The position numbers and the translations under genes were made by a program. Below the pieces are notes generated by a model. That model saw only the letters and a list, made by a program, of their open reading frames with translations, searched no databases and had not been told where the DNA came from. Positions 1-32,529 of a DNA stretch of 36,349 nucleotides are shown piece by piece (position 1 is the stretch's first letter; each line of letters starts with the position of its first letter). Source of the stretch: a virus; the IMG/VR virus record IMGVR_UViG_3300031999_003301, positions 1 to 36,349 of that record, one strand, 5' to 3'.

Positions 1-93
1 TTGGCCGACACTATTACTTCCAAAGGTAGAATTTAAACTAGATGCTTTTGATGAACCACCACCAAACTGGAAATTCAAATTAAAGGCTGTCAA
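1..93 (-). CDS. Possible start of a gene running off the left edge (TTG start, partial)
   Basis: On the minus strand a frame is open from a TTG codon at 93-91 to the window edge, 31 codons. An AAGGA ribosome-binding sequence lies three bases upstream of the TTG, and in-frame stops lie just before it, so the frame cannot extend further back. The peptide is rich in Gly, Ser, Asn and Phe (it contains FQFGGGSSKASS), which resembles a phage structural protein more than random sequence. It would overlap the 3' end of the deacetylase gene by 14 bp and be transcribed after it. No ATG is available. Function is not recognised. The call rests on the ribosome-binding site and composition only; a chance frame is possible. 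Confidence 0.35.
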   Translation of the reverse strand, partial: MTAFNLNFQFGGGSSKASSLNSTFGSNSVGQ

Positions 94-727
94 TGTTCCT
101 TAAAGTTATAAATGATTCAGCGTATAATTGACCACATTCACTGCCACGTTTTTCAGCTAAATTCAAGATTCCTTTTTTAGATCTTGGGTGGGGCCACTGT
201 TGAATTTCGTCTGTATAATACTCTAAGCATTCAGTTTTCGTCATAATTTCATCTATTGATAATGGAACATAGTGATTTGGAATGAAGGTGTATTCAGGTA
301 ATTTTGGAGATTGGTCTGTTGATGATAGAATTTCACCCAAGTAGATTTTCTTTACTAAAAATGGTGCATAGACCCTTGTAGCTATTCTCAGAACTTTGAA
401 CATGTATTCGTGGTCTTGATGATTGTCTCCGTTAAAAACGGAATATAGAACATCAGGTTTGAAATTGTGTATCTCATCTTCCAATATCCGGACATTGGGT
501 ACAAAATTTCTTTCGGTTATGAAAGTGTTACAAGCTTTACCAAAACACCCCAATTTTTCTGCTACTTGTGGAAACTGATCAACTTGTTTTTGGGTTCTGG
601 GCGACATAGAAATGTCTGCCATGAAATATACAAAAACGTTGTCGTTTCTTTTTACGTGTTTCTGTATTATACCACCAAAACCAAGAACTTCGTCGTCTGG
701 ATGAGGAACTACAATCATTACATTCAT
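80..727 (-). CDS. PIG-L/LmbE-family N-deacetylase
   Basis: A 215-residue protein with the family's zinc-site motifs: PHPDDE at residues 8-13 (His9 and Asp12 as probable ligands) and DNHQDH at 101-106, supplying the third His. Family members remove N-acetyl groups from GlcNAc-type sugars or related conjugates using zinc and water; the substrate here cannot be read. I chose the ATG at 727 because PHPDDE normally sits within the first ten residues or so. Earlier in-frame Met codons would run into the divergent glycosyltransferase gene. The 28-bp gap to that gene holds a TATATATAT block, with the box start 14 bp from this ATG. The cytosolic location and a role in making an amino sugar for the neighbouring glycosyltransferases are inferences. 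Confidence 0.87.
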   Translation of the reverse strand: MNVMIVVPHPDDEVLGFGGIIQKHVKRNDNVFVYFMADISMSPRTQKQVDQFPQVAEKLGCFGKACNTFITERNFVPNVRILEDEIHNFKPDVLYSVFNGDNHQDHEYMFKVLRIATRVYAPFLVKKIYLGEILSSTDQSPKLPEYTFIPNHYVPLSIDEIMTKTECLEYYTDEIQQWPHPRSKKGILNLAEKRGSECGQLYAESFITLRNIDSL

Positions 728-732
728 AACGC

Positions 733-744
733 CTATATATATGG
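733..744. promoter_or_regulatory. Divergent TATATATA promoter box between deacetylase and GT8-like gene
   Basis: The sequence CTATATATATGG lies in the 28-bp gap between divergent start codons at 727 and 756. The TATATATA core is self-complementary, so it can be read in both directions: 14 bp from box start to the minus-strand ATG and 22 bp to the plus-strand ATG. It resembles a T4 late box (TATAAATA), and a gp55-like sigma factor is encoded in this window. Promoter activity is inferred. Confidence 0.55.
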
Positions 745-755
745 CTACATGAGTT

Positions 756-1394
756 ATGAAGGTTTTTCTAATAGACATAAGAAACAAAGAAAACGAAGAA
801 GAATATAAATTGTGTTCTGATATTCTGTTTGATTACTTCGACAAATATCACTTTGATGTTTTTGTTCTTAAAGAGAATAAACACAGAGTAAAACCATCGT
901 GGTTGAAACTGAAATGCTTTGATTACATTGATGATGATTTTGTATTATGTTGGGATATGGACCTTCTACCAAAAAAGAATTGCCCTTCCATATACAATTC
1001 ATTAGATTTCGATAAGATAAACCTTGCTGTTGATTCGAGCATTATACTTAGGAATAGAGGATTATTTGTTCCTAGCTTTAGATACAACTGTGGACTAATG
1101 GGAATACCAAGGAAATACAAAGATGCTATGGATATCGTTTTCATGTCCTATACCGATTCTAAATGGCCATCATATGAACAATATCACATAAATGAATTCT
1201 TAGCTAAGAACAATTATAAAGATGTTCATGAATTGGATAAGTCATGGAATTGTTTGTTTCATTTGCCTACTGTGCCTAATCAATACATTTTATCATCTAA
1301 CGTAGTTCACTTTTCTCAACCTTCTATGAGGAAGGAGTCAATAAAGCAATACCACGATTTGTATTTTAAGACACCAAAGGTTTCAATTTCTTAA
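756..1394 (+). CDS. Glycosyltransferase-like protein (GT8-type DxD)
   Basis: A 212-residue protein with the layout of small GT8-like nucleotide-sugar transferases. WDMDLLP carries a metal-binding DMD at residues 67-69. RYNCGLMGI resembles the family's FNSGVMLI segment. EQYHINEFL resembles the DQDxLN segment, LDKSWNCL resembles the LPxxWN segment, and a late VVHFSQP supplies a possible second metal-binding His. It would transfer a sugar from a nucleotide donor; donor and acceptor are unknown. The start follows the TATATATA gap at 733-744. Its last 29 bp overlap the 3' end of the convergent gene at 1366-2133. Family assignment is from motif order by eye, and a more distant GT-A family is possible. 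Confidence 0.62.
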   Translation: MKVFLIDIRNKENEEEYKLCSDILFDYFDKYHFDVFVLKENKHRVKPSWLKLKCFDYIDDDFVLCWDMDLLPKKNCPSIYNSLDFDKINLAVDSSIILRNRGLFVPSFRYNCGLMGIPRKYKDAMDIVFMSYTDSKWPSYEQYHINEFLAKNNYKDVHELDKSWNCLFHLPTVPNQYILSSNVVHFSQPSMRKESIKQYHDLYFKTPKVSIS

Positions 1395-2133
1395 AGAACT
1401 CTGCTCTATGAATATTTTCATTCATAAAGTTATATTTCTTTAGAATCTCAGTCTTTTCTTCATTAGAATTAGCAGCCATTAGCTTTCTAAAAAGATGCAT
1501 GTGTATAGGATGGATTGCTATGAAATCTTCTGTTATTTCATATCCTAATCCTGTAGAAATCTTTATGTCCTTTTTTATGATAGACGGGTCATTGAGAGAC
1601 ATTGCTACACGAACATCTTCCCCCAAATATGTTTCAGGAGTATTCTTGAAAAATTCTCTACCATCCTTAACAATCTTTTCACAAGCCTTTCTACTCAATA
1701 TAAACACCCCACCCTCTGCAAAGTCTAATTCAAAAGTCTTTTTCGGTCTTTTGTATTCTGGATTCTCCATTTTATACCAATGAAAATATTGGTCATACCA
1801 ATCGTGTAATTGATAGTTGTGGAAATGTCCTATGTAATCTTCCGGTGCAGTTTCATATCGTCCTACCTTTTTTACATCAAGAAAGTTATCATCATCCATT
1901 TTAAGAAGTTTTTCATTACCGGAGTTTTTCAAATGATATTCTACCAAGCAGAATGTTTTCTCTGCTAGGTTCTCATATGCCTCTTTGAAATCAAATTCGA
2001 TATATGGTTCTACCTTGTTTACATTGCCCTTACCATAAACAAAAAAGTATTCGTGTGGAGAATCTTTTAACATTTCCTTTGCTTTTCGAGCGTAGCCAAC
2101 TCGTTTATCGCAAGATGTAACGTAAATTTTCAT
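1366..2133 (-). CDS. Glycosyltransferase-like protein, GT31-like (copy 2 of tandem pair)
   Basis: A 255-residue protein with a GT31/Fringe-like motif order: KMDDDNF with the metal-binding DDD at residues 80-82, then EGGVFILSR (compare SGGGYVLS), then GEDVRV (compare the catalytic-region EDV). No signal peptide or membrane helix is seen, unlike eukaryotic GT31 enzymes. It is a diverged paralogue of the upstream gene at 2133-2990: both have a DIK segment followed by an IHPI segment near the C-terminus. Its ATG overlaps the upstream stop codon in the arrangement TAATG, which suggests coupled translation. It is the last gene of the three-gene minus-strand operon that starts at 3742. Donor and acceptor are unknown. 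Confidence 0.62.
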   Translation of the reverse strand: MKIYVTSCDKRVGYARKAKEMLKDSPHEYFFVYGKGNVNKVEPYIEFDFKEAYENLAEKTFCLVEYHLKNSGNEKLLKMDDDNFLDVKKVGRYETAPEDYIGHFHNYQLHDWYDQYFHWYKMENPEYKRPKKTFELDFAEGGVFILSRKACEKIVKDGREFFKNTPETYLGEDVRVAMSLNDPSIIKKDIKISTGLGYEITEDFIAIHPIHMHLFRKLMAANSNEEKTEILKKYNFMNENIHRAEFFKKLKPLVS

Positions 2134-2990
2134 TATCCCAATCCTATAGTTTTTTTTGAATTCAGAAACTTTATAACCGCTTCTTTAATGTCATATTCTA
2201 ATGTTTCCAAGTAGATTTTTCTCTTTAACAAATTAACACATTGATTTTTCTTGATAATTTCCATCTGTTCTTCTTCTCCTAATCCTATTAGATATGGATA
2301 TAGAGATTCATTTATTGGGTGGATGGTAAAATAATCCGAAGTAACTTGTAAATTGTTTTCTGTTATTACATCATTTACAAGTTTTATGTCGTGTTTTATT
2401 ATACTGTCGTCCCTAAGTAAATATCCAAATAGTCTATCTTCGGCATATCCTTGTGATTCAGCTAGCTTAAAATCTGATTTGTAAATGTGATTTATGGCTT
2501 TCTTGCTAAAGAAACAACATTCGCCCGTCACAAATCTAAATAGTTCCTCTTCAAACGTTCGTGGATTTATATAGATTGTTTTGTATATGTTGAAATGGTC
2601 TAACTCCAGTATTATTTTGGATGGTAGATTGCCGTAGAGGAATCTCCCAATGTAATCTTTCCCTTCTATCCACTCTTTTTTGAACTTTTCTATGTTGATT
2701 TTGGTGTCATCATCAATCTTTAAAATGAAATCGAAGTCATATTTGTCGTTAATTCTTTTGTAAGCTTCCAGAAATTTCAAATGAAGGTTGGTGTATTTTT
2801 CATCTACATCCACAACCATTGTCTCAAATGGAATATTCGATGTGTCGCCACCTCGACCAAACACAAATATCGGTATTAATTCTATGGGCCGCCAGCCGGA
2901 GGGCGCTAAAGACCATTTAAGGTTGTCAATCTGATTCTTAATTCTCTGTTTGTTTTGATTACAACAGGGTATTACCAAAATTATTTTCAT
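2133..2990 (-). CDS. Glycosyltransferase-like protein, GT31-like (copy 1 of tandem pair)
   Basis: A 285-residue protein with YTNLHLKFLEAYKRI before LKIDDDTKI, where the metal-binding DDD is at residues 93-95. TGECCFFSKKA and YAEDRLFG follow, again matching the GT31 order. The C-terminal ITE...IHPI segment is shared with the next gene, so the two are tandem paralogues. The start ATG overlaps the stop of the gene at 2987-3742 in the arrangement ATGA. A GC-rich stretch at 2886-2906 encodes a short PSGWRP segment that has no counterpart in the paralogue. A cytosolic sugar transferase is the best reading; specificity is unknown. Confidence 0.62.
   Translation of the reverse strand: MKIILVIPCCNQNKQRIKNQIDNLKWSLAPSGWRPIELIPIFVFGRGGDTSNIPFETMVVDVDEKYTNLHLKFLEAYKRINDKYDFDFILKIDDDTKINIEKFKKEWIEGKDYIGRFLYGNLPSKIILELDHFNIYKTIYINPRTFEEELFRFVTGECCFFSKKAINHIYKSDFKLAESQGYAEDRLFGYLLRDDSIIKHDIKLVNDVITENNLQVTSDYFTIHPINESLYPYLIGLGEEEQMEIIKKNQCVNLLKRKIYLETLEYDIKEAVIKFLNSKKTIGLG
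2886..2906. repeat. GC-rich hairpin-forming stretch inside a GT gene
   Basis: A run of about 21 bases that is far richer in G and C than its surroundings. It can form a short CGCC/GGCG stem. It is in frame within the glycosyltransferase gene and adds residues absent from the neighbouring paralogue. It may be a small palindromic insertion, but chance is possible. Confidence 0.35.
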
Positions 2991-3742
2991 AGTTTTTCGA
3001 TGAAATCTTTATCATCGGTAGCAGTAAAATAAACACTTACCTTACCACTCTTTGTTTTACCAACATACCACACAGGTTTACTATGTTCAAGCAAAAACTC
3101 CACCACCTTTTTATAGGTTTTCTTTGTTTCTTCACCTAAATGTCCTAAATCAGGTTCAGTAAATTTAGGGAATTCATAAATCAAATTGACTTTGAAATCT
3201 TTGTCATCTGTATAATAACACTCCAAACATTCTAGTTCTAAAACATTGGCTTCCATTTTAGTAAATGCTAATACCTTTTCCATATCATTTTTATCTTCTA
3301 TATAGAGGTAGTATTTCTTTGCAACCTTTTTCTTCGTGTATTCGTATGAAATACCACCATCAGGATGTTTATATTCCAACAAACTTATTAGAATTGGTGG
3401 TTTCGGCATCATCACAAATGGAGTTTTTTTACCAAATTTAACATGAAAATATTGAGTTTCGTTTTTATCAAGTTTGAGTCCAAGAGCTAACGAAGATTTT
3501 ATAGAACGGTCCCAAAACTGAGATACCATCTTGAATGATTCAATTTCGGGAAGGAATTCCGACAATAATTCATCGGATGGTATTTCTTTCAGTTCGTAGT
3601 AATTTTTGAATTGAATGTTGTTTCCATATACAGTGAATCCCATCAAGTTAGAATATGCTAAACTATAATAGTTTATGCCTATAACCCTTTTAATATAACC
3701 AATGAATGTCAAGCTTTTCTCATTTTTTATTAATTCAATCAT
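2987..3742 (-). CDS. Unrecognised 251-residue protein, first gene of GT31 operon
   Basis: I do not recognise this protein. It is mixed alpha/beta in character, rich in Lys, Tyr and Glu, with no signal peptide and no membrane helix. Notable pieces are PFVMMPKPPILIS in the middle, ECLECYYTDDKDF later, and a late WYVGKTKSGKVSVYFT segment that reads like two paired beta strands. I chose the ATG at 742 bases past 3000 (3742) over the ATG at 3763 because the later start abuts the palindrome ATATACGTATAT, as other island genes abut TATATAT boxes. Its stop overlaps the next start (ATGA), so it is probably co-translated with the two GT31-like genes and may act with them. Confidence 0.7.
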   Translation of the reverse strand: MIELIKNEKSLTFIGYIKRVIGINYYSLAYSNLMGFTVYGNNIQFKNYYELKEIPSDELLSEFLPEIESFKMVSQFWDRSIKSSLALGLKLDKNETQYFHVKFGKKTPFVMMPKPPILISLLEYKHPDGGISYEYTKKKVAKKYYLYIEDKNDMEKVLAFTKMEANVLELECLECYYTDDKDFKVNLIYEFPKFTEPDLGHLGEETKKTYKKVVEFLLEHSKPVWYVGKTKSGKVSVYFTATDDKDFIEKL

Positions 3743-3752
3743 ATACGTATAT
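3741..3752. promoter_or_regulatory. Palindrome ATATACGTATAT at a divergent junction
   Basis: A perfect 12-bp palindrome whose left end forms part of the start codon of the minus-strand gene at 3742. It occupies the same place as the TATATAT blocks at the other divergent junctions of the island but has CG at its centre. It may be a variant promoter box or an operator. Confidence 0.4.
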
Positions 3753-3793
3753 CTATCAAACACCCCAAATATAACTGATTTTTTAATTTTACT

Positions 3794-5011
3794 GTGAGTG
3801 ATAAATGCAAAATATGTCTGTTACCTTGGAGTCATCTTTTTTATGGGTCCGATGGCAATGTTTATCCTTGTTGTAAACTAGAGGGCAAGAATAGCAAGTA
3901 TGTAGTGGGTAAAAGTACCGATAGTGTAGATACTCTGTGGAATTCTCCTGTATTAAAAGAATTGAGAAAAAGTTTCATGGAACAAAAAATCACGGATGCT
4001 TGTAATACACAATGTTTCAATAGTATCAATTCTTTAAATATTTACGTTTCCCAGGCAGACAATAACAGAAAAGAGCAGTGGTTTTCTGAAACTGCTCCTG
4101 ATGGAACATTTAGAAAGAACTTCACCGTCTGGAATTTAGTGGCATCAAATCTTTGCAATTACAAATGTGCTTATTGTAGTATATTGTTGAGTAGTAGGTT
4201 TTATGAAGATAAAGACATATTAAGTGTAATTCCAAAGCACTCCAGTCAGAGGGAGATAACACAACAACACTACAAAGCTTTTGAAAGCAAAGAACAGATG
4301 TTAAAATTATTCAAAGAGAATATTGACATGATAGAAAAAATTTATTTCGCCGGTGGTGAAACACATCTACAAGATGGATACAACGAAATGTTTGAAATGT
4401 TAATAGAAACTGGAAAAACGGATATTTATTTTGAATATTATACCAACATGAGTGGGTTCCATTATAAGGGAAAGAATGTGTTGGAACTGATAGAGCAATT
4501 TCCTAATGGACACATAGTTGGTAGTGTTGATACTATGGGTAAAAGGGCAGAATACATTAGATATGGAACAATTTGGAGTAATGTTGAGAAACAAAGAGAG
4601 TTTATGCTTACCAAGCATCCAAAAGTCAATTTCATATTACAGCCTGTTATATCAAATATGAACATCTACACTTTACCAGACTTTCATCTTGATTGGTTTA
4701 ACAAAGGATTTGTAAGGAAAGATAATGTTCGTTACATACCACTGGAAGAACCAGAGGAAATGAATATTACCGTTATGCCTGTGAAATTAAAGGATGATGT
4801 TTCAAGGAAATATGAAGGATATTTAGTGTGGTTATCAAAAGAAAAAAGCACGGAAGTAAATAAAGTGACACCTGTAGAGAAGGTTAATATGTTTTTGGCA
4901 GAAATGAGAAAACCATCAATCAGAACAGAAGACGAATTCAAACTTTTCGTAGCAAAACAGAATATTACAAGAAAGTTAAAATTCAAGGAGATTTTTACGG
5001 AGTTCGCTTAA
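3794..5011 (+). CDS. Radical SAM protein with N-terminal twitch-type cluster domain
   Basis: A 405-residue protein. The radical SAM core begins with CNYKCAYC (Cys121, Cys125, Cys128), which binds the 4Fe-4S cluster that cleaves SAM; FAGGET follows as the GGE-type SAM-binding motif. An auxiliary-cluster domain precedes the core instead of following it: Cys8 in CLLPW, PCC at 25-27, and Cys70 and Cys74, the arrangement seen in twitch-domain radical SAM proteins. The start is GTG at 3794, because no ATG is in frame before the N-terminal cysteines. Its stop overlaps the convergent stop of the next gene in the four bases TTAA. The substrate is unknown; enzymes of this kind oxidise or cross-link peptides or act on sugars. 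Confidence 0.85.
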   Translation: MSDKCKICLLPWSHLFYGSDGNVYPCCKLEGKNSKYVVGKSTDSVDTLWNSPVLKELRKSFMEQKITDACNTQCFNSINSLNIYVSQADNNRKEQWFSETAPDGTFRKNFTVWNLVASNLCNYKCAYCSILLSSRFYEDKDILSVIPKHSSQREITQQHYKAFESKEQMLKLFKENIDMIEKIYFAGGETHLQDGYNEMFEMLIETGKTDIYFEYYTNMSGFHYKGKNVLELIEQFPNGHIVGSVDTMGKRAEYIRYGTIWSNVEKQREFMLTKHPKVNFILQPVISNMNIYTLPDFHLDWFNKGFVRKDNVRYIPLEEPEEMNITVMPVKLKDDVSRKYEGYLVWLSKEKSTEVNKVTPVEKVNMFLAEMRKPSIRTEDEFKLFVAKQNITRKLKFKEIFTEFA

Positions 5012-6009
5012 GCAAATTGTTTAGACTCAAATAAGAATTTAGTGTGATAATCCTTCAAATACTTTGCTTTGAAATGTTCTCCGTCTCTTAGGAATTCAAA
5101 GTCTTTCATTCCAACCGTCCAACTGAAAATGCAGTTACTTAGATAAGATTTTCCAGCTTCTATATCAACATCTTCAAGTGTTGCATAATCTTTTTCGGTT
5201 AAAGGCATACTACCTATTTGTTGGTGCATTTGTGCTTTACCTGAACATCCCAAACACCACTTACAACCTTCCAACATTTCTTTCTTATCCAAGTATTCGT
5301 TCATCTTTTCTTGTGTTAGGTTTTCATCAATTGCGATTGAATCAAGTTCTGGATTTTTCATATGTTCAAATGGTTCTTTAACCAAATGTTCATGAGCTTT
5401 CAAGAAATTGTATTTTTTTCTTGTAGCATAACACTTGTATAGGCGACCATTGAACATAGCAAGACCGTGTTCATAGGTGGTAGCAAAGCAATTTTTATAG
5501 ACCTGTTTCAAAATTTCCGGGTCTTTATGGCTCTCAATTAGATTGGTCTTTAGGAACATTCTTATTCTACAAGCTACAACATCCAATTCAGGAAACTTTG
5601 TTCTAATATCTTTTACGTTTTTTCTTATGAGTTCTAACTGGTCATCTTTTAAACTATAAACGCTGACACGCAACCTGTCAATTGTTGTAAACAGCTTGTC
5701 TGGTGCTTTATGTAATAAGATGCCATTCGTAAACATTGTGATATGATTACTGACTTTGAGAGATTTTATGAGTTTAGCATATTCAAGAACACGTTTGTTC
5801 ATTAGTGGTTCTCCACCGACCATTCTAAATGCTTCGATGTGTATGAACTTGCTAAGTATGTTTAAATCCCTCTCAAACGATTCGTATGAGTATTGCTCAT
5901 CTGATGGAGTGAAGAATGGTGAATTGTGGGTACATTGAACACAGCTTAGATTACAATGTTCGGTTAGGTCTAATTCTAAGTCTGTTACGTATCTTTTTTC
6001 CACAGGCAT
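5008..6009 (-). CDS. Radical SAM protein with SPASM-like C-terminal cysteines
   Basis: A 333-residue protein. CNLSCVQC (Cys19, Cys23, Cys26) is the radical SAM cluster site and MVGGEPL at 63-69 the SAM-binding motif. Auxiliary-cluster cysteines follow at 174, 193, 249, 252 and 255 (CKWCLGC), as in SPASM proteins. The ATG at 6009 is formed by the last base of a TATATATA block, so a transcript from that box would be leaderless or would start inside the gene. A GTG two codons further in (6003) is an alternative start. The divergent aminotransferase starts only 13 bp away. The reaction is unknown. It is clearly different in sequence from the other three radical SAM proteins here. Confidence 0.86.
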   Translation of the reverse strand: MPVEKRYVTDLELDLTEHCNLSCVQCTHNSPFFTPSDEQYSYESFERDLNILSKFIHIEAFRMVGGEPLMNKRVLEYAKLIKSLKVSNHITMFTNGILLHKAPDKLFTTIDRLRVSVYSLKDDQLELIRKNVKDIRTKFPELDVVACRIRMFLKTNLIESHKDPEILKQVYKNCFATTYEHGLAMFNGRLYKCYATRKKYNFLKAHEHLVKEPFEHMKNPELDSIAIDENLTQEKMNEYLDKKEMLEGCKWCLGCSGKAQMHQQIGSMPLTEKDYATLEDVDIEAGKSYLSNCIFSWTVGMKDFEFLRDGEHFKAKYLKDYHTKFLFESKQFA

Positions 6010-6017
6010 ATATATAG
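6007..6017. promoter_or_regulatory. Divergent TATATATA box between radical SAM and aminotransferase genes
   Basis: CATATATATAG fills most of the 13-bp gap between divergent start codons at 6009 and 6023. The self-complementary core 6009-6016 is 14 bp from the aminotransferase ATG and runs directly into the radical SAM start codon. Likely a late promoter used in both directions. Confidence 0.55.
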
Positions 6018-6022
6018 ACGTT

Positions 6023-6979
6023 ATGGATTTACTAAAACGAGAACAATTGTTCAAGATGGGTTATTATAACCTTGATAGAAACGAAAACCTAGACAAGATT
6101 TATTTGGAACAGTTAGATGACATATTCAAAAAATGTTCGTCACTGGTTTCTGTTTACCCAGATTATCCCAAATTTACCTTGCGTATGGCATCATTTTTTA
6201 GTGTGTCACCACAGGAGATTCTTCCTGTGTGTGGATGTACAGAAGCAATAAAAATAGCCGCAGATTGTTTCATAGATACGGGCGCTGATGTATTGGTTCT
6301 AGCACCAACATATGAGTCGGCTATAACCTATTTCAAATTGCTGGATGCTCACCTACACTATCTACCATATTGGTCTGATATGGACAGGATTAAGTTCTAT
6401 ATCGCCAAGAATAACATCAAATTTGTTTATTTGTGTAATCCAAACAACCCCACAGGCACATACTACACATGTGAGCAGTTGAGAGAATTATCTTCATGCG
6501 AAACGGTTATATTCATAGATGAATCCTATTTTGAGTTTTGTGATTCCACAGCTATACCGTTGATAAAATCCACCGACAATTTCATTATTGGAAGAAGCTT
6601 TAGTAAAGCTTGGGGTCTTGCTGGTCTTAGAACCGGCGTTCTTATTTCTAACAAGGAAATGTTAGAGGAATTGTCCACCTACAAATTGAAAGCATCAACC
6701 AATTCATTAGCTGTGAAAGTGGTTTCTGAGTTGATGGATAATTACAAGATGATTTCCGATTCCGTAAGTAGAATAAAGGTGGGCAATGATTATATGCGAA
6801 GATTGTTCAAGAGCAAAGGATACACCGTATATAACGAACCAAACGTCAATTTTCTAACGTGCGATATACCGTCGGCGGATTTAGACGCCATCAGAGTGTT
6901 ACACAAGGTTGTAGATGGAAAACAATGTATTACTGTTGTTCCTGCTGACCAGGCAGAAAAAATCTTTAAATTTCAGTAA
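6023..6979 (+). CDS. PLP-dependent aminotransferase, HisC/CobD-like (class I fold)
   Basis: A 318-residue fold-type I PLP enzyme. Motifs in order: LDRNEN near residue 17, YPDYPK at 45-50, CGCTEAI around 70 (compare GxxEAI), NPNNPTG at 139-145, DESYFEF from 166, and SFSKAWGLAGLRTG from 192. Lys195 would hold PLP and Arg203 would contact its phosphate. The family includes histidinol-phosphate aminotransferase and the CobD decarboxylase. The protein is about 30-40 residues shorter than usual, mainly near the C-terminus. The final motif reads CITVV where relatives have RITVG, so the substrate-carboxylate arginine appears to be Cys302. A changed amino donor or acceptor, or a lyase/decarboxylase role, is therefore possible. 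The last 14 bp overlap the convergent GT29-like gene. Confidence 0.85.
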   Translation: MDLLKREQLFKMGYYNLDRNENLDKIYLEQLDDIFKKCSSLVSVYPDYPKFTLRMASFFSVSPQEILPVCGCTEAIKIAADCFIDTGADVLVLAPTYESAITYFKLLDAHLHYLPYWSDMDRIKFYIAKNNIKFVYLCNPNNPTGTYYTCEQLRELSSCETVIFIDESYFEFCDSTAIPLIKSTDNFIIGRSFSKAWGLAGLRTGVLISNKEMLEELSTYKLKASTNSLAVKVVSELMDNYKMISDSVSRIKVGNDYMRRLFKSKGYTVYNEPNVNFLTCDIPSADLDAIRVLHKVVDGKQCITVVPADQAEKIFKFQ

Positions 6980-7562
6980 TTCTTTTGCCGTTGATTAACT
7001 CTTTTATCTTGTTTCTTTCGATTAGGTATGGGTGTCCATCGGTGTAGTTTTGTGTTCTAGCAAACCTGTCTGCCATACCAACGTCATCCCAATACCATCC
7101 ACTAGACAAAAAGTTGTCAAATCCGGTTATATAAATTGGAACGTTGAAACGGTCTAAACAATACAGAATCGTTCTCATTCCAGTTGAATAATTTTGGTCA
7201 AACTTAAAATCATCCATAAACAAGTAAAGTATTTCTACCTTTGATGAATCTATTTTTGGCGGAGTATAGATTCTAAAAAATGATTCTTTGAGTTCTTCTA
7301 GTTTTCCTTTTACTTCTGGATGTTTCTCTATAGCTTCTTTGAAGTTTTGTTCACAAATGGATAATCTATTCAAATCTGTAAGGTCTATGTATTTGATATA
7401 TCTCGGTGAACAAGAATAAATGTCGGTTCTGGTTCCAACGTAATCTTCAAATCCTTCTATTTTGAAATTGTTAATGCGGACCACCGTTGACGAATCTACG
7501 AATTCTCTTTTCTTCGCTTTCAACACTCCTTTTCCGTTGCCTATAATAACGATTCGGTCCAT
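6966..7562 (-). CDS. GT29-like sialyltransferase-type glycosyltransferase
   Basis: A 198-residue protein carrying the ordered sialylmotifs of GT29. The L-type motif is IVIIGNGKGVL, then VDSSTVVRINNF, then GFEDYVGTRTD (residues 4-47). The S-type motif is YSTGMRTILYCL then IYITGFD (125-149). A final H(4)E motif is formed by His177 and Glu182. Animal GT29 enzymes use CMP-sialic acid with that late His as base. This version is shorter than the animal enzymes and lacks a membrane anchor. Whether the donor is a CMP-sugar is unknown, and I see no sialic-acid synthesis genes here. The ATG at 7562 was chosen because it immediately precedes the first motif strand and lies 16 bp from a TATATAT box; an upstream Met at 7607 would overlap the divergent gene. 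Confidence 0.75.
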   Translation of the reverse strand: MDRIVIIGNGKGVLKAKKREFVDSSTVVRINNFKIEGFEDYVGTRTDIYSCSPRYIKYIDLTDLNRLSICEQNFKEAIEKHPEVKGKLEELKESFFRIYTPPKIDSSKVEILYLFMDDFKFDQNYSTGMRTILYCLDRFNVPIYITGFDNFLSSGWYWDDVGMADRFARTQNYTDGHPYLIERNKIKELINGKRITEI

Positions 7563-7570
7563 AATACACT

Positions 7571-7580
7571 CATATATATC
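7571..7580. promoter_or_regulatory. Divergent TATATAT box between GT29-like and radical SAM genes
   Basis: CATATATATC lies in the 22-bp gap between divergent start codons at 7562 and 7585. Box start to ATG is about 16 bp on the minus strand and 12 bp on the plus strand. Same type as the blocks at 733, 6007 and 9840. Promoter role inferred. Confidence 0.55.
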
Positions 7581-7584
7581 CACT

Positions 7585-8430
7585 ATGAATGACCATTTGG
7601 CGAGCAAAAAGAAGCGTTACGAAACTGTTATATCCAGTGAATGCTTCAAAAATAACCTTTTTGGGTTGGCTACAATAGAAATGAATGTTTGTGAGCTTTG
7701 CTCAAGAAAATGTGCTTTTTGCCCTCGATTTAATACATCCGTTTACAGAGGTTACAGTGTTAGTATGGCCATCGAAACAGCTAAATCGTTGGCGTTGAAA
7801 TGCAAACTTGAGGGGTATGTTGGGGATATAACAATGGCTGGATTTGGCGAACCGACGATGCATCCAGATATTGACAAGGTTATAAATGTTATGAGTGGTA
7901 ATTTCGTCACTCTCATTACCAACGGTGATTTCTTAACACCAAAACTTATAAAACGAATGGTGAAAGCTGGATTGGGAAAAATCGTGGTTAGTTGTTATGA
8001 TGGAGAATTAGCCAGAGATAACTTCAATAAATTGTTGTTAGATTGTGGTATAGAATATCACGTAAGAGAACTTTGGGGAGATTTCAAAAAGGTTGTAACT
8101 GAAAACGATTTCAATAGTAGAACCGGGCTTGTTCCAATTGTCACAAATGGAAGTAATCAGTGTTACCTTCCATTTTATAAACTATTCATTGACTGGAATG
8201 GAAACGTGGTTTTATGCTCAAATGATTGGTATAGAAAAGAAGATAATCTTGGTAACATAAACAAAGACTTTCTTCCTGAAATATGGTTTGGTGAAAAACT
8301 AACAGAAATAAGAAAGAACCTAAAGGACGGAAACCGTTGTGGTAAAGCTTGTAAAGATTGTCAAGTCAACGGAACTTTAGTTGGTAGGGAAAGCTTTGAG
8401 CTTATTTGCCCCACCATAAGCAACGCATGA
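7585..8430 (+). CDS. Radical SAM/SPASM protein
   Basis: A 281-residue protein. The cluster site is CSRKCAFC (Cys39, Cys43, Cys46), with an additional Cys36 just before it. MAGFGEPTMHP at 84-94 is the GEP-type SAM-binding motif. The C-terminal part has SPASM-type features: Cys193, a LFIDWNGNVVLC strand pair ending at Cys211, LGNI then an EIW segment, and CGKACKDC with Cys252, 256 and 259. The ATG at 7585 lies 12 bp from the TATATAT box; the longer open frame upstream runs through the divergent gene and is not used. The last 54 bp overlap the convergent radical SAM gene, the longest such overlap in the island. SPASM enzymes modify peptides or proteins, or oxidise sugar alcohols; the substrate is unknown. 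Confidence 0.9.
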   Translation: MNDHLASKKKRYETVISSECFKNNLFGLATIEMNVCELCSRKCAFCPRFNTSVYRGYSVSMAIETAKSLALKCKLEGYVGDITMAGFGEPTMHPDIDKVINVMSGNFVTLITNGDFLTPKLIKRMVKAGLGKIVVSCYDGELARDNFNKLLLDCGIEYHVRELWGDFKKVVTENDFNSRTGLVPIVTNGSNQCYLPFYKLFIDWNGNVVLCSNDWYRKEDNLGNINKDFLPEIWFGEKLTEIRKNLKDGNRCGKACKDCQVNGTLVGRESFELICPTISNA

Positions 8431-9372
8431 TTCACAAGGCATACCTTTAACATCCTTTTTAAGATGCGCAGCTCTAAATTTCTGAAATCCTTCTGAGTTC
8501 CAAGCTTCCATAAATGACTGTTTGTTTAAATCTCCCACCTGAAACTTACCAGAGCCGTCAAAGCAACAAACGGTTAGCCCGCCGTCAGCCCTTACATGTC
8601 CTTCCGTAAATACAGACCAACATGGTAGTGGGTCCCTTAAAGCATCCAATCTACCCTGATTTCCCGCGGTTGGTTTGAATCCCAATTCTTCTTCTCTTTT
8701 GGTAGCGAAACTGGCCATAGAATATAGTGGTAGCCAGTAATGTTTATCTACATATGGTATGATGTTTTCTTTGAGGAATTGTTCCATCTTTTTTTGTTGT
8801 TTATCGTCGTATTGGATAGAACTAGCATAGAGTTTTGTATCGTAACCATATTCATTTCGTATTCTCCACGTTTCCTTGATGTTATTCAGAGTGTTTCTGA
8901 ACATACGTGCTGGTGACGACATGATAGTAGTGAATTGTTCTTCATCACAGGCATTAACGGACCATTTCAAAGAATCCAATCCAGCTAACATGATACTATC
9001 TACGAGTTCCGGCGTTGCCAGTGACCCATTAGACGTTAGGAAGACGTAGGGCATACCGATTTCTTTCAGATGGAGTATGGACTTCTCCAATAGAACAGGA
9101 TTGATTGTGGATTCGCCTATGTAGAATACGCCTATTTCCTCAACTCCAGCATCTAACATTTCTTTAGTTATTCTCTTGAATAGCTCAAAATCCATGTCTT
9201 TTGTAGGTTGTTTAACGCGGGCAGATAGGGAACAGAACCCACAACGGAAATTACAGCGAGGCGATAATTCTATCTTAACTGAACGGGGCGCTGGAATAAC
9301 TGTCTTTAAACGGTCTTCTGGAATCAATGTTATTCTATCTATTCTTTGGGTAATGTCCATAACTTTGTACAT
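8377..9372 (-). CDS. Radical SAM/SPASM protein
   Basis: A 331-residue protein with CNFRCGFC (Cys40, Cys44, Cys47), YIGES at 84-88 in place of GGEP, and a full SPASM-like C-terminus: Cys251, GGLTVCC at 264-270, VGDLN, SFMEAWNSE, then CESC at 313-316. This C-terminal order (Cys, G-x-V-x-x-C, G-D/N, W, C-x-x-C) is the standard SPASM layout, so two auxiliary clusters are likely. The first ATG at 9372 overlaps the 3' end of the methyltransferase gene by 34 bp, and a second ATG at 9360 is possible. It is co-transcribed behind the methyltransferase. Its substrate cannot be read. No short precursor-peptide gene was seen next to it. Confidence 0.9.
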   Translation of the reverse strand: MYKVMDITQRIDRITLIPEDRLKTVIPAPRSVKIELSPRCNFRCGFCSLSARVKQPTKDMDFELFKRITKEMLDAGVEEIGVFYIGESTINPVLLEKSILHLKEIGMPYVFLTSNGSLATPELVDSIMLAGLDSLKWSVNACDEEQFTTIMSSPARMFRNTLNNIKETWRIRNEYGYDTKLYASSIQYDDKQQKKMEQFLKENIIPYVDKHYWLPLYSMASFATKREEELGFKPTAGNQGRLDALRDPLPCWSVFTEGHVRADGGLTVCCFDGSGKFQVGDLNKQSFMEAWNSEGFQKFRAAHLKKDVKGMPCESCVAYGGANKLKAFPTN

Positions 9373-9842
9373 AGTAAAAAACTGTCTCCCATCACTCTTC
9401 TATAGTTTGTGATAAAATCGTTTTCCGAACTTAACAATTTTCTATACATTTCAAACGCAGATGGTTCTCTGAATGTCTCTATTAAGTATGTTCCGCCAAT
9501 TTTCATTTTTTGTTTAAATATTTCAAACGTTTCCATATGTTTATTCGGACTACCATCATCAACAATCACATCAAACATACCGTCTTTAAAAGTTTTGTTT
9601 ACCAGCTCTTTGTTAGTAGAGTCTATTTCGAATACATTAAAACCTGTTAAGTTCGCTTGTATATTTTTAAGTGTAATATCTATACCATAGATTTCACTAC
9701 CGGCAAGAAAAAACGATTTCCATTCACTTAAAGAGTTGCCTGTATCTAATCCTATTTCCAAGAATGTTATTGGTGATTTGTATTGAGAAAGGATTTTACT
9801 ATACGGTTCTTTAAATTTAATTCGTGGTATAGGCACGTTCAT
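9339..9842 (-). CDS. Small class I SAM-dependent methyltransferase
   Basis: A 167-residue protein. FLEIGLDTGNS is the SAM-binding glycine motif, YGIDIT ends the second strand with an acidic residue, and FDVIVDDGSPNKHMETF followed by GGTYLIE resembles the MycE-type sugar O-methyltransferase pattern, where relatives have DDGSH. The His of that motif is Pro here, so metal binding or catalysis may differ. The length suggests a minimal Rossmann domain without a lid. The ATG at 9842 lies inside the CATATATATG block, and the divergent glycosyltransferase starts 4-10 bp away. The downstream radical SAM gene overlaps its 3' end. Methylation of a sugar or of a small product of the island is an inference. 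Confidence 0.68.
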   Translation of the reverse strand: MNVPIPRIKFKEPYSKILSQYKSPITFLEIGLDTGNSLSEWKSFFLAGSEIYGIDITLKNIQANLTGFNVFEIDSTNKELVNKTFKDGMFDVIVDDGSPNKHMETFEIFKQKMKIGGTYLIETFREPSAFEMYRKLLSSENDFITNYRRVMGDSFLLCTKLWTLPKE

Positions 9843-9849
9843 ATATATG
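9840..9849. promoter_or_regulatory. Divergent TATATAT box between methyltransferase and GT32 genes
   Basis: CATATATATG is shared by both divergent genes. It contains the minus-strand ATG (9842-9840) and one candidate plus-strand ATG (9847). The second plus-strand ATG at 9853 lies 11 bp past the box start, matching the spacing at 6023 and 7585, which favours 9853 as the real start. Confidence 0.52.
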
Positions 9850-9852
9850 GGA

Positions 9853-10515
9853 ATGAATCACATAATTCATCAGTCGTGGAAAACAAACGAATTAAATGAA
9901 AAAGAGGGGGAATGGGTCGCTTCTGTTAAGAAAGCATTTGAAGGTTACGAATATAAATTTTGGACGGATAAAGATAATGACGACTTGGTTCGTATAAGTT
10001 ATTCAGAATTCTATAATTACTACAAAGATCTACTACCAATAGAAAAAGCAGATTTTGCTAGACACCTATACATCTATCACTATGGAGGCGTTTATCTCGA
10101 TTTAGATGTTAGAATGAATAAGCCCCTCCCCCTAGAGGGAGCGGAGGTATTTTTGTGTGACCAGACTGTAGAAGCTAATGATGAAAATATGAAGATTCTT
10201 GTTGACCCATTTTTCTTGGCTGGCAATGAAGGGTGTAAGTTTTTTTATTCCATGTGTCAGGCAGTTACTAGAGGAACGATTTTTAACATTCTTTCATCAA
10301 AAACAAGCAAAGAATATCTTACTACACTTTATAAAACCGGTCCGTATATGTTGACCAAGTTCTATTTGTTAAATAAACACAAATATAACATCAAACTTCT
10401 AAAAGACGTATTCACAACTGAACGATTTGGCAATAATGTTGTCAAAGAACAGGCTTTTGGCGTTCATATTCAGTTTAATTCGTGGTTAAGAGAGGAAGAC
10501 CGACGTAAACCTTAA
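9853..10515 (+). CDS. GT32-family glycosyltransferase (DXD sugar-binding type)
   Basis: A 220-residue protein in the pattern of OCH1-like GT32 enzymes: N-terminal MNHIIHQSWK, YKFWTDKDND, and KADFARHLYIYHYGGVYLDLDV, with the metal-binding DLD at 83-85 and the YGGVY signature just before it. A late VHIQFNSW gives the family's H...SW segment. GT32 enzymes transfer hexoses from nucleotide donors, often onto glycans or lipids. No signal or membrane anchor is seen. I start at 9853, because relatives begin with an IPKIIHQ-like stretch and the box spacing fits; 9847 adds only two residues. A GC-rich stretch at 10122-10147 encodes KPLPLEGAE just after the DXD. The gene ends the island. Confidence 0.85.
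   Translation: MNHIIHQSWKTNELNEKEGEWVASVKKAFEGYEYKFWTDKDNDDLVRISYSEFYNYYKDLLPIEKADFARHLYIYHYGGVYLDLDVRMNKPLPLEGAEVFLCDQTVEANDENMKILVDPFFLAGNEGCKFFYSMCQAVTRGTIFNILSSKTSKEYLTTLYKTGPYMLTKFYLLNKHKYNIKLLKDVFTTERFGNNVVKEQAFGVHIQFNSWLREEDRRKP
10122..10147. repeat. GC-rich palindromic stretch inside the GT32 gene
   Basis: About 26 bases of nearly pure G and C containing CTCCC and GGGAG arms around a 6-base loop. It is in frame and changes the loop just after the DXD motif. It recalls short GC-rich palindromic elements found within genes of AT-rich bacteria; its origin is not shown. Confidence 0.4.
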
Positions 10516-10539: not shown

Positions 10540-10547
10540 TATTTATA
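10540..10547 (+). promoter_or_regulatory. TATTTATA late-type promoter box
   Basis: Exact TATTTATA, starting 12 bp before the ATG at 10552. The same octamer lies before the genes at 13069, 15493 and 32540. Probable box for the gp55-like sigma factor encoded at 12102; inferred. Confidence 0.5.
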
Positions 10548-10551
10548 TTTG

Positions 10552-11535
10552 ATGAAAGATCAATTAGTTTCTAAATCAAAATTTCCTTGGCTTTTAGCTT
10601 TCTCGGCAGTCTTTATAGCCTTGTGTGCTGCGTGTTTCTCTGTTTATGGCATTGCTAGTCTTTTCGCTGGAGCAGCAATTTCCGTAATAATCATGGGATC
10701 ATCGTTAGAAATAGGAAAACTTGTCGGAGTAACGTTTCTTTATCGTTATTGGAGTAAGACTAAGGCATATCTAAAAATTTACCTATCTCTTGCGGTTATT
10801 TTATTGATGGTCATAACATCACTGGGCATTTTTGGATACTTATCAGCAGCATATCAGAAATCATCCATTGAGTTTGGTGTCATTCAAGAGAAAATCAAAA
10901 CAACAGAAGCTCAGAAGGTGTTTTATCAAGATAAAATTACCGCCTCAAAACAGAGAATCGAATCGTTAACAAAGCTTAGAGCATCACAAGAAAGTAGAAT
11001 AAGTGACATTTCTACTAACGAATTTCTTTCAAGGAATCCGTTACAATTAAAACAACTTACACAACAGACTGTAGATCTTATCACTAGCACAGATAAAGAT
11101 ATGAAGGATGAAAATTCAAAGATTCAAAGTACTATTGATGATATACAAAAGATAGACGATAAAGTAAATCAGTTAAAATTGGGGTCGGCTGAAAAAAAGG
11201 ATGTACAAATATTCAAATTTGTTGCTGATGCGTTGGGTCTTCCCTTGGATACGGTTGCTAGATGGTTTATTATAATGATTATCTTTGTATTCGATCCTCT
11301 TGCTATAGGTTTAATATTAGCATATAACGTAGCGGTTTATAGAAAAGAAGACGAATCTGTATATGATGCGCCTACCCCAATAAAATCAACGTTGGAGGCA
11401 CCCAAAGAGATTATAAAAGAAATAGAATTGCCAAAAGTAAATGTAATTGAAACTAAACCGGAACCGCAAATAGAAAAAGTAATAGAAAAGCCAGCGCATC
11501 TCAGTGAGTGGTTTCGCCAAATGTTCAAACTTTAA
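10552..11535 (+). CDS. Membrane protein with central coiled coil
   Basis: A 327-residue protein with about three N-terminal hydrophobic segments (from roughly residues 9-100, including WLLAFSAVFIALCAACF and IYLSLAVILLMVITSLGIFG). A long polar Lys/Glu/Gln/Ser-rich coiled-coil stretch follows (about 105-220), then a hydrophobic helix (WFIIMIIFVFDPLAIGLILA), and a Pro/Glu/Ile-rich tail ending EWFRQMFKL. This predicts an inner-membrane protein with a large soluble coil. The frame extends 12 codons upstream but only from a TTG; ATG 10552 fits the TATTTATA box. Function is not recognised. A role at the host membrane late in infection is only a guess. Confidence 0.8.
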   Translation: MKDQLVSKSKFPWLLAFSAVFIALCAACFSVYGIASLFAGAAISVIIMGSSLEIGKLVGVTFLYRYWSKTKAYLKIYLSLAVILLMVITSLGIFGYLSAAYQKSSIEFGVIQEKIKTTEAQKVFYQDKITASKQRIESLTKLRASQESRISDISTNEFLSRNPLQLKQLTQQTVDLITSTDKDMKDENSKIQSTIDDIQKIDDKVNQLKLGSAEKKDVQIFKFVADALGLPLDTVARWFIIMIIFVFDPLAIGLILAYNVAVYRKEDESVYDAPTPIKSTLEAPKEIIKEIELPKVNVIETKPEPQIEKVIEKPAHLSEWFRQMFKL

Positions 11536-12101: not shown

Positions 12102-13037
12102 ATGAAGAAGAAAAAAATCCTAAAGAAGCACCATGTCCGCAAATATAAGCATTCTAAAGAATATTTGGAGAAACACAAGAGACATTATAAGCACTCCAAA
12201 GAATATCTTAAAAAACATCAAAAACCAAAGCGTAAGTACACAAGAAGAGTAAAACTTGTAAAAGAACAACTTCTTCCACAACCACCAGCTATAGTGGTTG
12301 TTGTAAAAGAAAAGCGTGGCAGAAAGTCTCGTAATACATCACCTGATAGAATGTATTTTACTCAGGAAACGGAAAATGCTATCATTGAATATAATGCTTC
12401 TGAGGATGTTCCGACTAGAGAAGATATATACAATAACAGAATTAAGCGGCCATTTGAAAAACTTGTAGAGAACATTTTCAATACGTTTAAGTTCAGTTAT
12501 TTTGAAACAGGACCTCTAGATGTTCAAAAAGAAACCGTCTCTCATTTGGTTTCAAATATACACAAATACGAACAAAGTAAAGGTAAGGCTTTTGCTTATT
12601 TTTCAATCGTAGCAAAACACTACCTTATTGCTCTAAATAACTCCACTTATAAGAGACGTAATCAACATGTTGAAATAGGTGAAGAGCACGACGAACATAC
12701 AGTTCAACTTCAAACAGAGGATAAGCATCACAAGGATGCTGAAATGAAGGAATTCATGAATCTCATGATTCTGTTCTGGGAAAACAATGTAGGTAAAATC
12801 TTCACCAAACAACGTGATTTAGATATCGCTAATGCTGTAATAGAACTTTTCAGAAATTCTGATAGAATTGATGCCTTCAATAAGAAGGCTCTGTATCTTT
12901 ATATTAGAGAAATTTCTTCTTGTAAAACTCAACAGATTACTAAAGTAATCAATAGGATGAAACAGTATCAAAGTAATATTTCTCGTTCTTATATGAACAT
13001 CGGTTCTATAAATACCGAAAACTACATAAAAGTCTAA
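12102..13037 (+). CDS. 55: Late-transcription sigma factor, T4 gp55-like
   Basis: A 311-residue protein. From residue 83 the sequence follows gp55 of T4-like phages: MYFTQETENAIIEYN, PFEKLVENIFNTFKFSYF, then KGKAFAYFSIVAKHYLI, the sigma region 2-like part that contacts core polymerase and the late promoter box. Phage gp55 directs host RNA polymerase to late genes, usually with a sliding clamp. It is larger than T4 gp55 (185 residues), owing to a Lys/His/Arg-rich N-terminal extension of about 82 residues with two copies of YKHSKEYLxKH. The start at 12102 follows the previous stop; an in-frame upstream ATG at 12054 would overlap that gene. Matching TATTTATA and TATATATA boxes occur across the window. 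Confidence 0.85.
   Translation: MKKKKILKKHHVRKYKHSKEYLEKHKRHYKHSKEYLKKHQKPKRKYTRRVKLVKEQLLPQPPAIVVVVKEKRGRKSRNTSPDRMYFTQETENAIIEYNASEDVPTREDIYNNRIKRPFEKLVENIFNTFKFSYFETGPLDVQKETVSHLVSNIHKYEQSKGKAFAYFSIVAKHYLIALNNSTYKRRNQHVEIGEEHDEHTVQLQTEDKHHKDAEMKEFMNLMILFWENNVGKIFTKQRDLDIANAVIELFRNSDRIDAFNKKALYLYIREISSCKTQQITKVINRMKQYQSNISRSYMNIGSINTENYIKV
12141..12218 (+). repeat. Two tandem 42-bp-period repeats encoding YKHSKEYLxKH
   Basis: Two copies (12141-12176 and 12183-12218) encode near-identical 12-residue units, KYKHSKEYLEKH and HYKHSKEYLKKH, in the basic extension of the late sigma factor. The DNA copies differ at several silent sites, so the duplication is not recent or is kept by selection on the protein. 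Confidence 0.75.
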
Positions 13038-13055
13038 GGAATCACTATACGTCTC

Positions 13056-13063
13056 TATTTATA
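13056..13063 (+). promoter_or_regulatory. TATTTATA late-type promoter box
   Basis: Exact TATTTATA, starting 13 bp before the ATG at 13069, in the 31-bp gap after the sigma factor gene. One of four exact copies before plus-strand genes. Confidence 0.55.
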
Positions 13064-13068
13064 GGCGT

Positions 13069-13452
13069 ATGGAATTAGATTTTGAATTGTGTGAAGGAAA
13101 ATCCTTTAAGGATTTGTGTAAAGACATTATAGACAACCAGCATAGCCGTAAATTTCAAATTGAGGTTTTAATCTCAGAATTACGTCCTATGATTAAAACT
13201 GGCAATGATGCTATGATGATTGTTCCACTTATAAAGCAATATATTGATGCTGGTATTTCTAACGATGAGCATCTTGTAAAATTAGCTCAGATTTGCCAAC
13301 GACTTATAGCAGCTCAAGCACAAGCAGAGGCGTCTGGTACTTCATATGGTCTTTCCGAAGAAGAAAAGAAAGAACTCATGAGTAATATTACCGAAATTCA
13401 AAAATCGGATTCTGTTATAGTAAAAACAATTTCTAAAAAGGAAAACGAATAA
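13069..13452 (+). CDS. Unrecognised 127-residue helical protein at head of baseplate block
   Basis: A soluble, mostly helical protein. The N-terminal half reads ELDFELCEGKSFKDLCKDIIDN then IEVLISELRPMI; the middle has an Ala/Gln-rich helix (LIAAQAQAEA) and the end is Lys-rich. No signal peptide or membrane helix. It has its own TATTTATA box and ends 3 bp before the spike-like gene, so it is probably a leading gene of the tail operon. A chaperone or small structural role would fit the position, but the sequence gives no direct support for either. Confidence 0.75.
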   Translation: MELDFELCEGKSFKDLCKDIIDNQHSRKFQIEVLISELRPMIKTGNDAMMIVPLIKQYIDAGISNDEHLVKLAQICQRLIAAQAQAEASGTSYGLSEEEKKELMSNITEIQKSDSVIVKTISKKENE

Positions 13453-15477: not shown

Positions 15478-15485
15478 TATTTATA
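15478..15485 (+). promoter_or_regulatory. TATTTATA late-type promoter box
   Basis: Exact TATTTATA, starting 15 bp before the ATG at 15493, in the gap after the spike-like gene. It supports ATG 15493 as the start over the upstream TTG. Confidence 0.55.
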
Positions 15486-15492
15486 TACACAT

Positions 15493-16041
15493 ATGAAGAC
15501 ACAAGAACTAAGACAAATTCTACGTAAACTCATTAAAGAAGAAGTAGCTGCTGAAGTAAGCAAGGCTATGGGTAAGGTATTGGTAGAAATGGTTAAAGAA
15601 ATTAAGTCCGGCGGCCGTTCTACTATTATAGAAGAAGATGTGACTCCGGATGTTCCAATTCTACATACCAAAAATCCAAAACTTAACGGTGTATTGGCTG
15701 AAACTGCCAGACATTTTAAACCAAACCAAAGAACCGCTGATGAAGCCGCCCTTGGTCTTGCTGCGTTGATGGAAGGTGGATTTGATAAAATCGGACAAAA
15801 TGAGTCGGTTGGTGTCGAACCACCATCTACTAAACTAGATTTTCTAAAACAAATGGTAAGTACTGGGCCAGCATCTATGAGTCAACCATCTGCTTTGGAT
15901 GGTGGCGCTGAAGTACCTGATGCTCTCAAGAAAGTATTCAAAAAAGATTTTAGAGCGGTAATGAAACGTATAGATGAACAGAAAAATGGTACGGCTAGTG
16001 GTGGGTACATAGACCCATCCAAAGTTATAATGAACGGATAA
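15493..16041 (+). CDS. Small baseplate-region protein with N-terminal coiled coil
   Basis: A 182-residue protein. The first 45 residues form a likely coiled coil (TQELRQILRKLIKEEVAAEV), followed by a flexible Pro/Gly/Thr-rich middle (EEDVTPDVP, SALDGGAEVP) and a basic segment KKVFKKDFRAVMKRIDEQ. The frame reaches back to a TTG at 15451, but ATG 15493 follows a TATTTATA box and starts the coil. It lies between the spike-like gene and gp25, joined to gp25 by the junction TAATATG. It may connect or chaperone baseplate parts. I do not recognise a named family. Confidence 0.7.
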   Translation: MKTQELRQILRKLIKEEVAAEVSKAMGKVLVEMVKEIKSGGRSTIIEEDVTPDVPILHTKNPKLNGVLAETARHFKPNQRTADEAALGLAALMEGGFDKIGQNESVGVEPPSTKLDFLKQMVSTGPASMSQPSALDGGAEVPDALKKVFKKDFRAVMKRIDEQKNGTASGGYIDPSKVIMNG

Positions 16042-32521: not shown

Positions 32522-32529
32522 TATTTATA
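32522..32529 (+). promoter_or_regulatory. TATTTATA late-type promoter box
   Basis: Exact TATTTATA, starting 18 bp before the ATG at 32540, with AGAGGA between it and the start as a ribosome-binding site. Confidence 0.5.

Follow-up and report, generated by a model that had tools for sequence, protein, structure and literature searches.

Gene clusters devoted to the modification of surface sugars have been described in more than one group of phages. In marine T4-like pelagimyophages, a variable region adjacent to the tail-fibre genes is rich in glycosyltransferases and radical SAM cassettes, proposed to alter the surface polysaccharide of the host (PMC7029224), and in jumbo phages polymorphic surface-polysaccharide clusters, comprising glycosyltransferases, O-methyltransferases, 2-oxoglutarate (2OG) oxygenases and phosphatases, have been proposed to prevent superinfection (PMC7824862, section 3.4.10). 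Two promoter systems are also relevant: the bacterial bidirectional promoters described by Warman and Grainger, in which a symmetric -10 element serves two opposed transcription start sites (TSSs), usually 18 bp apart (PMC10268837, PMC12825309), and the late promoter of phage T4, a single 8-bp AT box, TATAAATA, located on the sense strand at -13 to -6 with no -35 element and recognised by gp55 (PMC2988020, PMC1524935). Here we describe a gene island at one end of a linear viral contig of 36,349 bases from IMG/VR (IMGVR_UViG_3300031999_003301; the whole contig is referred to below as the window), which is probably a mobile glycan-modification cassette, located beside tail genes and expressed late, in which genes placed head to head share one symmetric late promoter.

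The island comprises 13 intact genes (g01-g13, positions 80-10515) arranged in the strand order - + --- + - + - + -- +, and non-coding sequence accounts for only 97 of its 10,436 bp. Overlaps are present in all four convergent pairs, at 1366-1394 (29 bp), 5008-5011 (4 bp), 6966-6979 (14 bp) and 8377-8430 (54 bp), and both these overlaps and the strand order are exactly those given in the original prediction, which was made from the sequence before any searches. The same prediction counted four divergent pairs, having missed g05/g06 with its 30-bp gap; there are five, and the gaps are indeed tiny, measuring 28, 30, 13, 22 and 4 bp with the likely starts and approximately 16-19 bp at two junctions when downstream starts are used. 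Genes g14-g30 (10552-36118), whose products include gp25 and baseplate wedge proteins, all lie on the plus strand, and the median switch fraction in 54 distinct phage loci carrying the same radical SAM family is 0.03, in agreement with the assumption that same-strand blocks are the phage norm. Under a switch rate of 5%, the nine strand switches among the 12 neighbouring pairs of the island have a probability of ~4e-10.

The sequence ATATATAT has four copies in the 36-kb window (735, 6008, 7572 and 9841), all four inside divergent gaps, which gives p ~2e-10 under uniform placement when local AT-richness is ignored. The g01/g02 gap holds the symmetric box TATATATAT (734..742), 6 nt from the ATG of g01 and 13-14 nt from that of g02; the g07/g08 gap holds ATATATATA (6008..6016), 6 nt from the g08 ATG and 5 nt from the g07 GTG at 6003; the g09/g10 gap holds ATATATAT itself (7572..7579), 5 nt and 9 nt from the two ATGs; and the g12/g13 gap holds the palindrome CATATATATG (9840..9849), with a ATATATAT core 4 nt from GTG 9836 and ATG 9853. 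At these four junctions the opposed start codons are 18-30 bp apart, a distance close to the 18 bp usual between the TSSs of bacterial bidirectional promoters, although the two would agree only for near-leaderless transcripts. Unlike the alternation of strands, which is weighed below, the presence of the symmetric box in divergent gaps clearly exceeds chance.

An element that is symmetric in sequence and common to two opposed genes is thus found in four of the five gaps of the window, as well as in the phage loci L055, L172, L186, L233 and L259, and this recurrence in related and unrelated phage islands strengthens the earlier suggestion of two-way promoters, the palindrome being a symmetric form of a candidate late promoter. 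The likeness to the bacterial bidirectional promoters lies in the shared symmetric element; the bacterial system uses sigma-70-type -10 elements, whereas the island would use a single-box promoter of the phage late type, often a perfect palindrome that adjoins both starts.

The candidate late promoter itself was recognised from its distribution upstream of genes. Within 40 nt upstream of the starts of 823 called genes in 72 loci of the window's family, TATTTATA occurs 79 times vs 4.5 expected (17-fold), with a peak at 3-7 nt from the start, whereas its reverse complement TATAAATA is not enriched (4 vs 4.5 expected). TATATATA, which is self-complementary and constitutes the one-base symmetric form of TATTTATA, occurs 27 times vs 2.0 expected (13-fold) with similar spacing. 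In the window, plus-strand copies of TATTTATA are located at 10540..10547 (4 nt upstream of the g14 ATG at 10552), 13056..13063 (5 nt upstream of the g17 ATG at 13069), 15478..15485 (7 nt upstream of the g19 ATG at 15493) and 32522..32529 (10 nt upstream of the g28 ATG at 32540). The box upstream of g17 is kept in 21 relatives, in which TCTATTTATRG precedes the start (with 3-7 nt between its end and the ATG in 20 of the 21), and visual inspection of the aligned sequences upstream of g17 revealed no -35-like element. Enrichment of TATTTATA was also found in two large relatives (13 vs 1.2 and 14 vs 0.4 expected); the region of Microcystis phage Mel-JY01 is devoid of the box, which is therefore not universal among related phages.

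Judged by its sequence and position, TATTTATA resembles a late promoter of the T4 single-box type, from which almost leaderless mRNAs would be made. Like the T4 element it is an 8-bp AT box, apparently a single one, and it differs from that element in two respects: the sense-strand box of the window's family is the reverse complement of that of T4, so that the T4 consensus is not the sequence enriched before its genes, and 3-7 nt separate its end from the start codon. Such tight spacing, together with the absence of Shine-Dalgarno (SD) sequences upstream of most genes, could also be expected if TATTTATA and TATATATA were a translation-initiation context, the palindrome arising where two contexts overlap in a short gap. 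This we consider highly unlikely, since the frequency of the box tracks the need for a promoter: it is present at 48% of divergent starts, at 18% of same-strand genes following a gap of at least 30 bp and at 5% of the tightly packed genes of operons (p 9e-9 for 18% vs 5%). The resemblance to the T4 late box and the presence in the family of a gp55-like protein also argue against a translation signal.

This protein is g16 (12102..13037, plus strand), a predicted gp55-like late sigma factor encoded 1.6 kb from the island and conserved throughout the family. Its AlphaFold2 model (pLDDT 78) matches T4 gp55 in the open complex of gp55 with RNA polymerase (RNAP) (7d7c_F) with a Z score of 10.9 and a root-mean-square deviation of 3.0 over 113 residues, and sigma factors or sigma-RNAP complexes fill the top 50 rows of the fold comparison. 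The likeness is detected by fold comparison alone: neither sequence comparison nor sequence profiles matched g16 with T4 gp55, and the gp55 models of PHROGs found nothing in the relatives. The match of the N-terminal, sigma2-like domain is clear. Unlike gp55, the g16 model has an extra C-terminal helical domain, which by itself gives a best Z of 5.2, with SigA region 4 reaching 4.9 in a list of otherwise unrelated folds. The model would allow g16 to be a natural fused late sigma factor (gp55 plus a gp33-like part), a possibility relevant to the absence so far of any fused late sigma factor, which has been posed as an open question (PMC2988020). In a relative of 365 kb, a search for the RNA polymerase beta family gave no match, although it was positive in 14 of 14 controls, and we infer that host RNA polymerase together with g16 would read the late boxes.

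Symmetric boxes are not limited to the window. Of all 16 AT-only palindromes of 8 bp, only TATATATA/ATATATAT lie repeatedly between opposed starts in the family loci, at five junctions, compared with a single case in ~1,800 for the other 14 (p 2e-5). More generally, palindromes of at least 8 bp are present in six of nine short divergent junctions vs 1.5 expected from matched upstream windows (p 0.001), and in a second set in four of nine vs 1.3 expected (p 0.03). A junction in L095 has the inverted repeat TATGTA-A-TACATA, and a longer divergent gap of 60 bp in L036 contains two separate directional TATTTATA boxes. Outside any glycan island, the 365-kb relative has two short divergent gaps, L172:8426-8441 (16 bp) with ATATGTACATAT and L171:3370-3383 (14 bp) with ACAATATA; with their symmetric or near-symmetric AT boxes, these pairs indicate that shared boxes are not confined to islands. 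A divergent pair in L168 that resembled a case of a shared asymmetric box was not counted since, to judge from the protein, translation probably begins later, behind a separate TATTTATA box.

The slot occupied by the island, upstream of g14, is variable in the relatives that have the same tail module. It contains tail-fibre-like and GIY-YIG-like genes in L005, L008 and L012, a sulfotransferase/GT32 island in L006 (= L055), a related island in L036/L037, which in L036 lies between tail-fibre genes and g14, and a fourth island in L095. Like the host-recognition cassette of pelagimyophages (PMC7029224), the island is therefore a region beside tail genes that is absent or replaced in relatives and that combines glycosyltransferases with radical SAM genes; unlike that cassette, it belongs to a different phage family, has a late-type box with a symmetric form, and flips at nearly every gene. 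The nearest relative, L036, contains homologs of g02 (57%), g09, g08, g10 (two), g11 (82%) and g13 (65%), some of them in a different order, orientation and pairing.

A scan for the family of g10 found it at 454 viral places in IMG/VR, and in the set L184-L263 this radical SAM/SPASM family lies in several cases near GT29-like and HisC-like genes. In the same T4-like set it is TATAAATA that is enriched (27 vs 2.5 expected), so that late-box polarity differs by lineage, with TATTTATA on the sense strand in L003-L118 and TATAAATA in L184-L263. Flipping islands with symmetric junctions are present in L186, L233 and L259, contigs which we infer to be T4-like from the TATAAATA box and the fibre-like proteins around the islands, and their genes come from the same kinds of family (radical SAM, GT29-like, HisC-like, GT8 and 2OG oxygenase). 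A perfect palindrome of 26 bp in L186 spans the distance from start codon to start codon, whereas the junction palindromes are GTATATATAC in L233 and TATAGATATCTATA and ATATATAT in L259. The gene string +G+B+D-H+A+L+E-A is identical in L259 and, reversed, in L233, and L095, a member of the window's family, has the string +G+B+D-H-.+D+A+E, with protein identities between L095 and L259 of 24-65%, the weakest being in G, where 69 residues were aligned. Both L259 and L233 have a symmetric H/A junction, each with a palindrome of its own. The common gene strings mean that a flipped block is shared across lineages with opposite late-box polarity, with symmetry kept at the shared junction. Overall, the islands of L036, L055, L095, L186, L233 and L259 have gene families and flips in common, and their short divergent junctions are mostly symmetric or near-symmetric. 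Family G, a short protein of unknown function, is found at the island edge by the tail-fibre genes (L095:3393-4091, L233:9713-10297 and L259:7284-7874). Many apparent flips in other family members were discarded as likely artefacts of greedy open reading frame (ORF) calling, the upstream region of L041, for example, being almost wholly one-strand by coding score.

The original prediction supposed that genes were added or kept in two-gene units; this fails for L036, where genes are re-paired and partly on one strand, and holds for L259, L233 and L095 insofar as they conserve a block together with its flips. A palindrome between opposed genes may alternatively be the site of a dimeric regulator, of phage or host origin, that controls both genes from ordinary promoters inside the flanking genes, and palindromes are typical of operator sites, those observed including the 26-bp perfect palindrome of L186 and a 12-bp palindrome of other sequence in L172. 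We regard this explanation as very unlikely, given that the palindrome is a one-base symmetric form of a directional box placed 3-7 nt before starts family-wide; furthermore, sigma-70-like host promoters, like intrinsic terminators, are no more frequent in the region than in shuffles.

As regards the genes of the island, g01 (80..727, minus, ATG 727) encodes a PIG-L-type deacetylase (PF02585, E 2e-13) with an HPDDE motif in its translation. The product of g02 (756..1394, plus) is a putative GT-A glycosyltransferase on account of its DxD-like motif WDMDLLP; it has no Pfam match and has the 57% homolog in L036. Genes g03 (1366..2133, minus; PF01762, E 4e-7) and g04 (2133..2990, minus; PF01762, E 4e-11) encode GT31-like galactosyltransferases, and g05 (2987..3763, minus, start GTG 3763 or ATG 3742) an unknown protein with zero matches in Pfam, PHROGs and NCBIfam. 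They are followed by g06 (3794..5011, plus), a radical SAM protein with a twitch/SPASM domain (NF033640, 252 bits at a cut-off of 170; PF04055, PF13186), g07 (5008..6009, minus, start ATG 6009 or GTG 6003), another radical SAM protein (PF04055, E 1e-11), and g08 (6023..6979, plus), a HisC/CobD-like pyridoxal phosphate aminotransferase (PF00155, E 2e-35; PDB HisC, E 2.5e-20). The product of g09 (6966..7562, minus) is a GT29 (sialyltransferase)-like protein (PF00777, E 3e-7) with homologs in the islands of other phages, and g10 (7585..8430, plus; PF04055, PF13186) and g11 (8377..9372, minus) encode radical SAM/SPASM proteins. Finally, g12 (9339..9842, minus, start ATG 9842 or GTG 9836) encodes a class I methyltransferase (phrog_21658, E 2e-11; Pfam below the cut-off) and g13 (9853..10515, plus) a GT32-like glycosyltransferase (PF04488, E 6e-13), whose start is aligned with those of its L036 and L055 homologs. 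The content proposed earlier is therefore largely borne out by Pfam and NCBIfam (four radical SAM proteins, the deacetylase, the aminotransferase, two GT31, one GT29-like and one GT32 protein, and the methyltransferase), with the exception of the fifth glycosyltransferase, g02, which lacks a family match. The catalytic motifs CxxxCxxC, HPDDE, DxD and SxSK were found in the translations, and the genes may plausibly form a single pathway.

In comparison with the nearest relative of the window, g11 shows a proportion of amino-acid change (pN) of 0.11 and of silent change (pS) of 0.73, indicating purifying selection; for g13, g02 and g09, pN is 0.22-0.32 and silent sites are saturated. With amino-acid change far below silent change, the island genes can be considered working genes. 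No direct relatives of g08 or g05 were obtained in the IMG/VR search, and neither the island DNA nor g11 had a match in phage isolates, where g10 had remote matches only, in Campylobacter and Synechococcus phages whose islands are mainly one-strand. Rfam and tRNA scans gave no match and no tRNA. To the left of g01, window positions 1-79 contain a short minus-strand open stretch (NFQFGGGSSKASSLNSTFGSNSVG), which may be the margin of a tail-fibre-like gene; as the contig stops there, the island may extend further. The tail protein g26 matches five separate stretches of Mel-JY01 (L002 26996-35942), a pattern that would fit a fibre-like domain duplicated in tandem.

A number of points weigh against a shared symmetric promoter as the organiser of the island. 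Compared with coin-flip orientation, the excess of nine switches in 12 is not significant (p=0.073); the regular alternation described in the original prediction was therefore overstated, and the flips by themselves establish no pairing rule. One window gap in five, that between g05 and g06 (3764..3793, 30 bp), has no perfect box, a palindrome, ATATACGTATAT, lying at 3741-3752 in the 5' end of g05. Short junctions are no more than near-symmetric in L036 and L171 and asymmetric in L186 (6961/6974), and L168 has two separate directional boxes if the later start is used. AT-rich gaps favour AT palindromes, and matched controls hold palindromes of at least 8 bp in ~9-21% of windows. The positions taken as start codons within the gaps depend in part on our own choice, and the gene calls in relatives come from our own simple coding-score gene finder, which was adopted because, with crude ORF calls, an enrichment of all 8-mers at divergent junctions was swamped by spurious ORFs. 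The glycan function assigned to the island rests on family names, and substrate and acceptor are putative.

Some of these points would fit a different origin, in which "moron" genes, each under a promoter of its own, were acquired independently and oriented at random, and underwent ordinary compaction, the AT palindromes being a by-product of AT-rich gaps. In addition to the switch count, the re-pairing of genes between the window and L036 and the low coding scores of island genes relative to the phage core are compatible with such an origin. It would not account for the same palindrome at all four occurrences in the window, for the excess of palindromes over matched controls, for the specificity for TATATATA among AT palindromes, or for the conservation of a gene block with its flips among L259, L233 and L095, and we consider it unlikely.

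Under the shared-promoter reading, the island would be a horizontally exchanged glycan or surface-modification cassette in a variable slot between the tail-fibre genes and the tail/baseplate module, and its genes are probably late genes. Together with host RNA polymerase, g16 would recognise the 8-bp box TATTTATA, and with 3-7 nt left between the box and the start codon the mRNAs would be nearly leaderless, making both a -35 element and an SD leader unneeded. A change at the centre of the box to TATATATA would render it self-complementary, so that at one such box between opposed start codons the polymerase could load either way and both genes would be served within less than 30 bp. Head-to-head pairs would then share a box while tail-to-tail pairs could dispense with a promoter and overlap, resulting in a compact, strand-flipping island whose genes need no common operon. 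The likely role of the enzymes is to make or alter a surface sugar of the host (or of the virion), e.g., in order to block rival phages.

The original prediction regarded the island as a new system. Its contents are of a known kind, since marine T4-like phages carry cassettes of glycosyltransferases and radical SAM proteins in their tail-fibre/host-recognition region; for pelagimyophages, late-promoter prediction had failed (PMC7029224). What appears to be new is that bidirectional promoters would serve as the late boxes around which a phage island is organised: a limited search of the open-access literature found no account of phage genes organised by palindromic late promoters. The jumbo-phage account (PMC7824862) does not use the term radical SAM, and its section 3.4.10 is silent on strand flips or promoter organisation.

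We also put forward, as a speculative and rather doubtful extension, that TATATATA is an adaptor that is both two-way and bilingual, as it is one base away from both TATTTATA of the window's family and TATAAATA of T4-like phages. If true, a head-to-head cassette carried on TATATATA would be expressed in phages of opposite late-promoter polarity, which would explain the presence of the same flipped block in both lineages, and promoter symmetry would be a selected device for the movement of cassettes between phages. If the shared-promoter reading is right, a symmetric box between opposed starts provides a simple sequence rule for locating co-expressed pairs, as well as the limits of genes, in phages that have not been cultivated, and it offers a possible mechanism by which small accessory genes can be inserted either way beside tail genes and yet be expressed late.

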